NCBI GenBank assembly: GCA_038845865.1
Contig: JAWBQJ010000004.1
Location: forward strand, 1-64,000
Direction: 5' to 3'
DNA: 64,000 nt
DNA from: Desulfurococcaceae archaeon
GTDB taxonomy: Archaea; Thermoproteota; Thermoprotei_A; Sulfolobales; Desulfurococcaceae
Below are positions 12,902 through 18,460 of the stretch, piece by piece. Every line of letters starts with the position of its first letter. The first letter of the stretch is position 1. The notes beneath the pieces are model-generated. The model searched no databases and was not told the origin of the DNA. It was given only the letters and a program-made list of their open reading frames with translations. Position numbers and translations under genes: made by a program.

Positions 12902-13291
12902 ATGGTGTGTACCATGTGTCATCACCATCACCACCACGAACACCACTGGAGGCACCCGGAATTCCCGAGAACGAGGTTTGGCTTTCCACTCCGGGGACTC
13001 CTCCATTTAATCATCTTAAAGGCCCTTGGAGAGAAGCCGATGAGGGGTATTGACGTACAAAAGTATATCAAAGAGAAATTCGATTTTGACATTCCAAGCG
13101 CCGCCGTGTACGTGATCTTGAAAGGCCTCGAGGAGAAGGGCCTCGTATACTCTAAGTGGGATAAAGATGCTGAAGGATCTCCAGTAAAACTATACTACGC
13201 AACGGGCGAAGGCAAGGACTACTTAAAGGATAAAATAGAGGCCATCAAGTCCCTTAAGAAGGTATTAGACTATCTAACAACGAGCACTTAA
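12902..13291 (+). CDS. PadR family transcriptional regulator with His-rich N-terminus
   Basis: Residues 25-128 form a PadR-type winged helix: GLLHLIILKALGEKPMRGID, then SAAVYVILKGLEEKGLVYSK and LYYATGEGKDYLKDKIEAIK. PadR proteins are dimeric repressors that bind operator palindromes and respond to ligands. The N-terminus is unusual: MVCTMCHHHHHHEHHWRH has nine histidines and two cysteines within 18 residues, so metal binding is a reasonable inference. The start is ATG 12902 or ATG 12914; both keep the His run. It is divergent from mptE and lies upstream of the phosphate permease gene; its own target is unknown. Confidence 0.88.
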   Translation: MVCTMCHHHHHHEHHWRHPEFPRTRFGFPLRGLLHLIILKALGEKPMRGIDVQKYIKEKFDFDIPSAAVYVILKGLEEKGLVYSKWDKDAEGSPVKLYYATGEGKDYLKDKIEAIKSLKKVLDYLTTST

Positions 13292-15468: not shown

Positions 15469-15507
15469 ATGGTAATACTTGGAGCCTTGCTTTATCAGTA
15501 TAGGATA

Positions 15508-16140
15508 ATGCATGAACGTTCCGGGATTTACGTGGGCCCTTTCTCGAGCTTTCTCGTTAAGTGGAAAACCAGGAACAACGTACTAGAGGAAGGAGACAAG
15601 GTTAAGAAGTCCATCGAGGAACTAAGTAAGGGGCTTGACGAGGTCAAGAAAACCACTTTAGCGCTTGCCGAGAAAGTGGACAAGTTAAACAAGTCCCTGG
15701 CAGACCTTTCACGAGAGGTTGGTAAATTAAGTGACTCCTTCGGCTTCATAGTAGAAGACGTTGCCCGGAGCCTTTTACCGACATGGCTCCACGTAAACAT
15801 GGGCATACTCGTCAAGAACCTTAGTAGAGCATTCTTTGACCTGGGTAACAAGGTGGTAGAGGTGGATTTCTACGGTGAGGGCGTTGACGTTAATGGAGAT
15901 AGCGTAGTAGTTTTCGGAGAGGCCAAGGCCAGAATCCATGGAGAAGACGTTAAGGCATTTTACGACAAGGTACAGCAGGTCTTAAGGCAGAAAAGCCGCT
16001 CTAAGTACACGTTGCTAATGTATGGGCTTTATGTACACCCCTCAGCGGTACAAGAAGCACTTCAACGAGAAATAGTGGTAGTATCACCGTACACCGTTGT
16101 ATCACGATACAGTGCGAACGGGACCTCACGCGCTCCGTAA
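15508..16140 (+). CDS. Coiled-coil protein with PD-(D/E)XK nuclease-like domain
   Basis: The frame is open from ATG 15469, but the TATA box at 15460-15467 places the transcription start near 15490, so ATG 15508 is more likely. The first 75 residues from there contain a heptad-rich coiled coil (KSIEELSKGLDEVKKTTLAL and on to REVGKLSDSF). The second half has a PD-(D/E)XK-like core: KVVEVDFYGEGVDV followed by VVVFGEAKARI, giving an acidic residue and an E-x-K pair, then a helix DVKAFYDKVQQVLRQ. This is the layout of archaeal DUF3782-type proteins, which are predicted nucleases of unknown role. A structured RNA candidate lies 160 bases downstream on the same strand. Confidence 0.7.
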   Translation: MHERSGIYVGPFSSFLVKWKTRNNVLEEGDKVKKSIEELSKGLDEVKKTTLALAEKVDKLNKSLADLSREVGKLSDSFGFIVEDVARSLLPTWLHVNMGILVKNLSRAFFDLGNKVVEVDFYGEGVDVNGDSVVVFGEAKARIHGEDVKAFYDKVQQVLRQKSRSKYTLLMYGLYVHPSAVQEALQREIVVVSPYTVVSRYSANGTSRAP

Positions 16141-16274
16141 TACAATAGCATTTAATGACAAATGTATTACTCGAACAGTGTTATACAAAAGTGGGACCCA
16201 CGTACTTCCCAAAATTACATGCAAGAAGATAATGATACAAAACAAATTCCTTAACTAGAAGACACGATACAAGT

Positions 16275-16282
16275 GTATAAAG
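16275..16282 (+). promoter_or_regulatory. TATA box before the structured RNA candidate
   Basis: GTATAAAG centred at 16278 predicts transcription start near 16302, which coincides with the first base of the 34-bp stem at 16301. Confidence 0.6.
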
Positions 16283-16300
16283 GACGCCGGCCCAGCCCGG

Positions 16301-16445
16301 CTTAGAGAGTATTAGTATAGGCATGTCTATGCAGCGCGCGAGGTGGAGATCGGGGGTCAGCGCTCACCCGGGACACCGGGTGGGTGTTGATCTCTGATCT
16401 CGCTTCGTGCACTGTATAGACATGCTTATACTAACTCTCTCTAAG
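16301..16445 (+). ncRNA. Candidate structured non-coding RNA with a 34-bp stem
   Basis: Bases 16301-16334 pair with 16412-16445: 32 of 34 positions pair, two as G-U on the plus strand, with one 2-base internal loop. Inside, GCGAG (16338-16342) pairs with CTCGC (16399-16403), GAGATC (16346-16351) pairs with GATCTC (16389-16394), and CACCCGG (16365-16371) pairs with CCGGGTG (16376-16382) around a GACA loop. The result is a nearly continuous rod of about 145 nt. The G-U pairs become A-C mismatches on the other strand, so a plus-strand RNA is favoured. A TATA box is correctly placed upstream and a pyrimidine-rich stretch (16478-16500) follows. No SRP, RNase P, tRNA or C/D hallmark is present; the function is unknown. 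Confidence 0.65.
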
Positions 16446-16477
16446 CGAGGGGTAAACGGCTGCTCCTCTCCCCAAAT

Positions 16478-16500
16478 AACTAACTTTTATACTCTTTCTG
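16478..16500 (+). terminator. Pyrimidine-rich terminator candidate after the structured RNA
   Basis: The run AACTTTTATACTCTTTCTG follows the stem by about 35 bases and could end the RNA. The rest of 16141-16300 and 16446-16540 holds no other feature I can see. Confidence 0.35.
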
Positions 16501-18133: not shown

Positions 18134-18245
18134 AGTATAAAAGCCCTATTCACTGTACATGTTGATAGAGGCTCCGGCGAGAAGCCGCGTGTCACGCGGT
18201 CCTATGAACCGGAGCGGGTCCCCCGGTTCCCTGCATACTTCAATA
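18134..18245 (+). mobile_element. Possible IS605-type right end with structured RNA
   Basis: A TATA box (AGTATAAAA, 18134-18142) is followed by closely packed hairpins: CCGCGT/ACGCGG (18185-18199) and GAACCGG/CCGGTTC (18206-18229). The sequence then runs into CATACTTCAA. Right ends of IS605-family elements, which also encode the omega RNA of TnpB, have this look. No tnpB reading frame survives upstream, although one frame ends with a TnpB-tail-like stretch (RGPMNRSGSP). I cannot prove that it belongs to a former element. Confidence 0.4.
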
Positions 18246-18289
18246 ATCACCCAGAGAGGAAACTGACCTCCTCCCCGCCCTTGAGGTAG

Positions 18290-18460
18290 TTCACCACGTA
18301 GGCTGGGGATAGCCGTGGAGGGCATGAGCAGAACACGTGGACATGGCCTGGTAGAACCTCGATAGCTATAGGTTCACAGCCGAGCTCAAGCAGTATCTGC
18401 TCCAACACTTCTCTAGCGTATTCAGCAACCCGCCTACAAGAACGTCTCTACGGCGTCAGC
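18290..18460 (-). pseudogene. tnpA: Decayed IS200/IS605 TnpA transposase
   Basis: On the minus strand the sequence reads RRVAEYAREVLEQILLELG, then CEPIAIEVLPGHVHVFCSCP and PRLSPAYVVNYLKGGEEV. The HVH pair is the HUH metal-binding motif of Y1 transposases, and PRLSPAYVVNYLKG is the typical stretch after it. A one-base deletion near 18435 separates this from an upstream RRDVLVG piece, and the C-terminal part with the catalytic tyrosine is lost. The gene is not functional. Confidence 0.75.

Follow-up and report, generated by a model that had tools for sequence, protein, structure and literature searches.

Several small nuclease or polymerase systems have a dedicated structured RNA in their neighborhood, such as retrons, TnpB/IscB with their omega-RNA, and other RNA-dependent nucleases. 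In type III toxin-antitoxin systems, an upstream antitoxin of short, pseudoknotted repeats is the substrate of the endoribonuclease toxin (PMC5086642). In AbiF/Abi_2 systems, a structured non-coding RNA next to the protein gene (RCd22) binds the toxic protein directly and thereby neutralizes it (PMC12373285). Crenarchaeal PD-(D/E)XK endonucleases with a coiled coil have also been described (PMC4786415). We analyzed 64,000 nucleotides of a Desulfurococcaceae archaeon (assembly GCA_038845865.1, contig JAWBQJ010000004.1, positions 1 to 64,000 of the forward strand; the whole stretch is called the window), in which the gene of a predicted coiled-coil PD-(D/E)XK nuclease is followed on the plus strand by a long hairpin. 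Comparison of related loci indicates that the hairpin is very probably a real RNA-level element coupled to this clade of nucleases. A search of the open-access literature found no description of such a pair of hairpin RNA and nuclease.

The hairpin was confirmed, and its stability greatly exceeds chance expectation. Folding and structural alignment gave one near-continuous stem of 68 bp at positions 16300–16446, or 70 bp at 16296–16450 when the basal pairs are counted. As RNA, the stem has a folding energy of −120.6 kcal/mol, and the region 16275–16500 (226 nt) reaches −143.1 kcal/mol, compared with −70.2 ± 4.8 for 200 shuffled sequences (z = −15.2). When both strands of the whole window were scanned in 160-nt pieces, the hairpin scored −120 and the best fold elsewhere −65; the hairpin background was taken from the window and the fetched loci. 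The plus strand forms 68 pairs, including 11 G-U pairs, whereas the minus strand forms 58 pairs, including two G-U pairs, with an energy of −81.3. An earlier note on this DNA had placed an inverted repeat with a 34-bp stem here, capped by three more nested helices. The repeat is present at this site with a longer stem, and the nested helices are parts of the same single stem, separated by a few mismatches. The claim that the G-U pairs favor plus-strand RNA agrees with the pair counts, and the pyrimidine tract noted 3' of the stem is present.

Nine loci with the hairpin were compared: that of the window, five from other genomes of its genus, and three from Thermogladius genomes, both genera belonging to the Desulfurococcaceae. 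A blastn search of the relatives with the hairpin returned only short chance matches, since the sequence of the arms is not maintained; the related loci were obtained from synteny and folding. A scan of genome contigs with a single nuclease sequence found nothing, and a profile scan found seven loci, whose records bear the names Desulfurococcaceae, Thermosphaera, and Thermogladius. One genome of the Thermogladius group (G023) is complete, with 1,356,318 bp. In nine of nine loci, the hairpin lies 3' of the nuclease gene on the same strand, with a gap of 100–144 nt from the nuclease stop codon.

The RNA and the nuclease occur strictly together. A covariance model of the RNA matched nine of 214 genomes of the order, exactly the nine that have the close nuclease clade, and extension to the class added none. 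The model was trained on these nine loci; the information lies in the absence of matches from the other genomes. This exact co-occurrence outweighs the E-values of the model, because any long hairpin scores somewhat with such a model. In the window, which is part of the training set, the match covers 16283–16465 with 127.8 bits on the plus strand and 52.8 bits on the minus strand. A model built without the window recovered 16281–16464 at E = 3.8e-13, even though its automatically assigned structure was wrong in part. Among 47 homologues placed in a tree, the nine nucleases group as a single clade (support 94/94) beside a sister group of 27. No comparable hairpin was found in the flanks (up to about 1.5 kb per side) of any of these 27 relatives, or beside more distant nuclease homologues. 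With the RNA in a single clade and a sister group that lacks it, a single origin or capture of the RNA partner is the most parsimonious interpretation.

The pair is located at several unrelated genomic sites. In the window and in G031, it lies between an A24 peptidase gene and a CxxCxxCC gene, while in G034 and G036 it lies beside an amidohydrolase gene, in G033 and G035 near a phosphoribosyltransferase-like gene, and in Thermogladius between nucleotidyltransferase-like and Mre11-like genes. In G036 and G034, which have the pair elsewhere, the A24 and CxxCxxCC genes directly adjoin, giving an uninterrupted equivalent of the window site; likewise, the amidohydrolase gene of G031 and G035 stands directly behind another gene. 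The nuclease and the RNA thus behave as a unit of approximately 1.1 kb, for which no transposase or terminal repeats were identified. Two genomes of the same genus, G030 and G032, have neither the nuclease nor the RNA (G032 is only 78% complete), which is consistent with a dispensable, mobile module. Taken over all loci, the sequence comparison indicates that the rod is inherited and moved together with one clade of coiled-coil PD-(D/E)XK nucleases. The pairing of RNA and nuclease raised in the earlier note thus finds support in the adjacency at all nine loci, the exact co-occurrence, and the shared move between sites. In the window, an apparently decayed transposase adjoins GGCGGGGAGGAGGTC (18233–18300, minus strand), which also occurs at approximately 6913 of locus L113, and a similar end lies just 3' of the G035 hairpin. 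This sequence resembles the end of crenarchaeal IS200/IS605 elements.

Selection acts on the pairing. In an alignment made without structural information, RNAalifold found 57 pairs, of which 44 show changes on both sides. Paired cells amount to 88.8% compared with 69.2% in shuffled alignments, and the covariation score is 0.665 compared with 0.274, a value reached by none of 500 shuffles. The signal was lost when the partners were slid by one to three columns; a one-column slide left 42–49% paired. Comparisons between closer relatives weigh more, because the near-randomized arms make the column homology of the stem uncertain between distant members. In five comparisons at close or middle distance, 67–88% of the changed pairs still pair, compared with 38–42% expected, and four of the five exceed the 97.5% limit. 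These four have enough changes, with 74–88% of the changed pairs still paired, whereas the closest pair of genomes (G033/G035) has too few. The compensatory change that was to be sought in relatives is thus abundant, and the hairpin appears to belong among structured non-coding RNA families, whose common structure is kept by such changes. The strand is also marked. Over the nine sequences, 102 G-U pairs would form in the plus strand and 28 in the minus strand; when only the six lineages are counted, the numbers are 70 and 20 (p ~6e-8). The covariance model also scores the nuclease (plus) strand higher in every genome. The G-U bias and the model scores point to selection on an RNA from the plus strand and argue against a purely DNA-level palindrome.

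In contrast to the pairing, the sequence of the arms is hardly retained. Between non-sister species, the identity of the 5' arms is 0.49–0.60, compared with 0.46–0.53 for shuffled arms, whereas the proteins are 37–60% identical; approximately 95% pairing nevertheless persists. The arm length is 72–77 nt in all nine loci, and the rod between the basal loop and the cap is 66–71 bp across the relatives. Both ends are conserved. The basal internal loop has the pattern C-Y-x-A-x-x-C-C on the 5' side and GGGG[A/G]UAA-x-C on the 3' side, of which GGG.TAA.C is invariant in the nine sequences. The cap is a GNRA-like loop of 4–5 nt (GAUAA, GAAA, AAAA, GUGAA, GCGAA, or GCCA in the relatives), and the CGG/CCG pairs that close it are invariant. 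These comparisons indicate that rod length, the basal internal loop, and the capped end are selected, while the base sequence drifts freely. Two variations were observed. In the G031 hairpin (locus L054, approximately 2293–2476), GGGAUAACC is present at both ends of the rod, in the terminal loop and on the 3' side of the basal internal loop, which would fit a recognition motif shared by the two ends. In the Thermogladius loci (L057–L059), a mid-rod internal loop has strands that are each locally self-complementary, and a four-armed form is possible.

The partner gene (15469–16140, plus strand) encodes a protein of 218 amino acids, in which Pfam and AlphaFold2 place an N-terminal coiled coil and a PD-(D/E)XK nuclease domain. 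The start codon is uncertain (15469, 15487, or 15508). An AlphaFold2 model based on eight sequences has an 88-residue helix, the predicted coiled coil, and behind it a domain of mixed alpha/beta type, with a mean predicted local distance difference test (pLDDT) score of 76.8. The nearest folds in the PDB are EndoMS/NucS, Cas4 SSO0001, NucC, and Card1, which are all PD-(D/E)XK or closely related (E ~7e-4). In the model, the D...(E)xK catalytic residues lie on an alpha-beta core, as in PD-(D/E)XK nucleases. The residues D120, E138, and K140 (numbered from 15508) are invariant in the nine nucleases; therefore, the protein is likely an active enzyme. The Pfam family DUF3782 (PF12644) matched the window protein with 19.1 bits, below the gathering cut-off of 24.4 bits, and eight of the nine members match at a permissive threshold; a match of the window protein to RmuC is also below the cut-off. 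PADLOC gave a weak match of 15508–16137 to C3a181, labelled diadenylate cyclase (E = 0.0018), which probably reflects likeness in the coiled coil or the nuclease fold.

The hairpin does not correspond to a described RNA. The window contains no match to Rfam at curated thresholds and thus no known Rfam family, and no tRNA was found. The permissive Rfam matches were mostly to microRNA precursors and reflect the generic likeness of long hairpins. The hairpin has one copy in its own 1.45-Mb genome. The single copy speaks against a transposon-derived palindrome or miniature inverted-repeat transposable element, of which many copies would be expected, and the scattered palindrome that had been named as a possible refutation was not encountered. 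A new structured RNA beside an upstream coiled-coil nuclease, as first proposed, is thus supported by the compensatory changes and the single copy.

The candidate RNA gene of approximately 185 nt (16280–16465, plus strand) consists of a basal helix, an internal loop, a rod of approximately 70 bp, and a tetraloop. The 5' side of the basal helix and internal loop (GCCGGCCCAG, 16286–16295) is kept across both genera. It is followed by the 5' arm of the rod (16296–16371, 76 nt), the GNRA-like terminal loop GACA (16372–16375), the 3' arm (16376–16450, 75 nt), and the 3' side of the basal internal loop and helix (GGGGTAAACGGC, 16449–16460), which is GGGGATAAnC in most relatives. A putative promoter, GATACAAAAC followed by CTTAACTA (16234–16257), is kept upstream of the hairpin in the six loci of the same genus. 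Within the genus, the string ATACAAAAC or TTACAAAAC precedes a TTAAATA-type box 5' of the hairpin; most members have TTAAATA/TTTAAATA, and CTTAACTA of the window is a weaker version. The spacing of GATACAAAAC and the TTAAATA-type box predicts that transcription would start at approximately 16280, at the bottom of the basal helix. The TATA box chosen in the earlier note (GTGTATAAAGG, approximately 16274–16284; TATAAAGG) fits less well, with a start that would fall at approximately 16302, within the stem. The pyrimidine-rich and T-rich stretch after the hairpin (16461–16500) is a possible archaeal terminator; a scan for bacterial-type promoters and terminators was uninformative.

A further conserved element, GTATTACTCGAACAGTGTTATACAAAA (16164–16190, plus strand), lies between the nuclease stop codon and the RNA and is recognizable in all nine loci. 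As GTATTACTYGAACA..GTTATACAAAA, it directly follows the nuclease stop and is highly conserved in both genera; it has one copy in its own genome, and its distance to the hairpin varies among the relatives. An inverted repeat, GTAATAC...GTATTAC, with halves approximately 20 nt apart, spans the nuclease stop (16138–16170) and is shared by several relatives of the same genus; it is possibly an operator or a small terminator. Elsewhere in the window, a PadR-like regulator (12902–13291) has a natural histidine-rich N-terminus (CHHHHHHEHHW), which probably binds metal.

The explanation that we favor is a two-part mobile module, in which the rod binds the nuclease and restrains it until the RNA is lost or displaced; for this statement as a whole, we estimate a probability of approximately 0.4. 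The RNA would be transcribed from its own promoter as an independent molecule. The nuclease would bind the rod regardless of the stem sequence, guided by the conserved ends, and the length of the rod would set the number or the spacing of the nuclease subunits that fit on it. The later steps are less sure. In a healthy cell, abundant RNA may keep the nuclease inactive, and when the RNA is lost or displaced, by virus take-over, plasmid loss, or a stop of transcription, the nuclease might be freed and cut nucleic acid. A function in defense or as a toxin-antitoxin pair is a hypothesis. The neutralizing step, proposed by likeness to the type III and AbiF systems, is the least certain part, and several points weigh against the explanation as a whole. 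The RNA sits downstream of the nuclease gene, the reverse of the usual order in which the antitoxin gene precedes. DNA is the usual substrate of PD-(D/E)XK enzymes, which leaves a double-stranded RNA partner unexplained. Distant homologues manage without an RNA, and no defense genes were recognized among the eight window proteins scanned, so that the context of a defense island is lacking.

The main alternative is that the nuclease cannot work without the RNA, which would serve as its scaffold or activator; the rod would then align nuclease subunits or would sense a signal and switch the nuclease on. The fixed length of the rod, its free sequence, and its two conserved ends suit a scaffold or ruler, and the strict co-inheritance of RNA and nuclease also speaks for it. 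Card1 and NucC, both among the related folds, are enzymes that ligands activate. In the present case, neither a guide sequence nor a ligand for activation could be recognized, and the evidence does not separate activation from inhibition; we regard this alternative as somewhat unlikely, although it is the strongest rival of restraint by the rod. Next comes a 3' element acting in cis on the nuclease mRNA, which would end or stabilize the transcript, or which the nuclease would cut or bind for autoregulation. The position of the hairpin, on the same strand and shortly past the nuclease stop in all loci, makes co-transcription possible. The TATA-like boxes directly 5' of the hairpin in the genus speak against this alternative, and a plain terminator or stabilizer needs no fixed length of 70 bp, conserved basal loop, or GNRA-like cap; it is accordingly judged improbable.

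It is very unlikely that the rod gives rise, by dicing, to small guide RNAs against invaders, for example for Argonaute. Such a role would explain the fast sequence change, with arms nearly randomized between species, and an Argonaute nuclease of Thermogladius calderae is on record (PMC13204829). Phage and plasmid records contained no match to the hairpin, and viral contigs contained neither of two 20-mers from the arms, nor a nuclease relative, nor the upstream element, although these searches have low power for archaeal viruses. The G-U-rich drift that keeps the pairing is also the outcome of a constraint on pairing only. A DNA element without RNA function (a transposon-derived palindrome, a cruciform, or a single-strand DNA hairpin) is the least probable explanation: the near-palindromic sequence, the moving locus, and some insertion-sequence ends nearby would suit it, but the single copy, the G-U bias, and the constant preference of the model for the nuclease strand oppose it, as do the stepwise G-U intermediates between close relatives, since palindrome repair by template switching would restore perfect pairs.

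Compared with the known systems, the module favored here shares with the type III toxin-antitoxin systems (ToxIN, CptIN, and TenpIN/AbiQ) a nuclease, an adjacent small non-coding RNA, and varied genomic places. In contrast to these systems, the RNA is one long hairpin without tandem units in the fold or the alignments, it follows the nuclease gene at all nine loci, unlike an operon that has the antitoxin ahead of the toxin and a terminator separating the two, and the protein has a PD-(D/E)XK fold and a coiled coil instead of a ToxN-, CptN-, or TenpN-type endoribonuclease. In the fold of nested pairs, a simple rod accounts for almost all bases. Three defining features of type III systems, namely repeats, gene order, and toxin family, are thus absent. 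The AbiF/Abi_2 systems have a similar composition, a protein with an adjacent structured RNA, but neither the nuclease nor the rod was found to resemble them in sequence or structure. The partner is a distant relative of the DUF3782 coiled-coil PD-(D/E)XK endonucleases of Crenarchaeota, which likewise consist of a stalk and a nuclease (PMC4786415); unlike that group, the present clade falls below the Pfam cut-off, and a hairpin RNA was found with no other clade. Unlike retrons and TnpB/IscB, the locus has no reverse transcriptase, RuvC or HNH nuclease, guide segment, or Rfam match at curated thresholds. The novelty would lie in the composition, a fixed-length, sequence-free rod with a coiled-coil PD-(D/E)XK nuclease. 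An RNA family that is conserved in length and ends, and not in sequence, would be missed by sequence-based RNA discovery. The chances seem even that the pair represents an RNA-nuclease device of a new class, a mobile module of hyperthermophilic archaea. Its hairpin, constant in length and free in sequence, would serve as a molecular ruler: a sequence-blind double-stranded RNA, marked at its two ends, that both assembles and controls a coiled-coil nuclease cutting DNA or RNA. If the pair is an RNA-controlled nuclease, archaea gain a module without a recognized counterpart, and it poses a question of design, namely how a sequence-blind double-stranded RNA rod of approximately 70 bp controls an enzyme.
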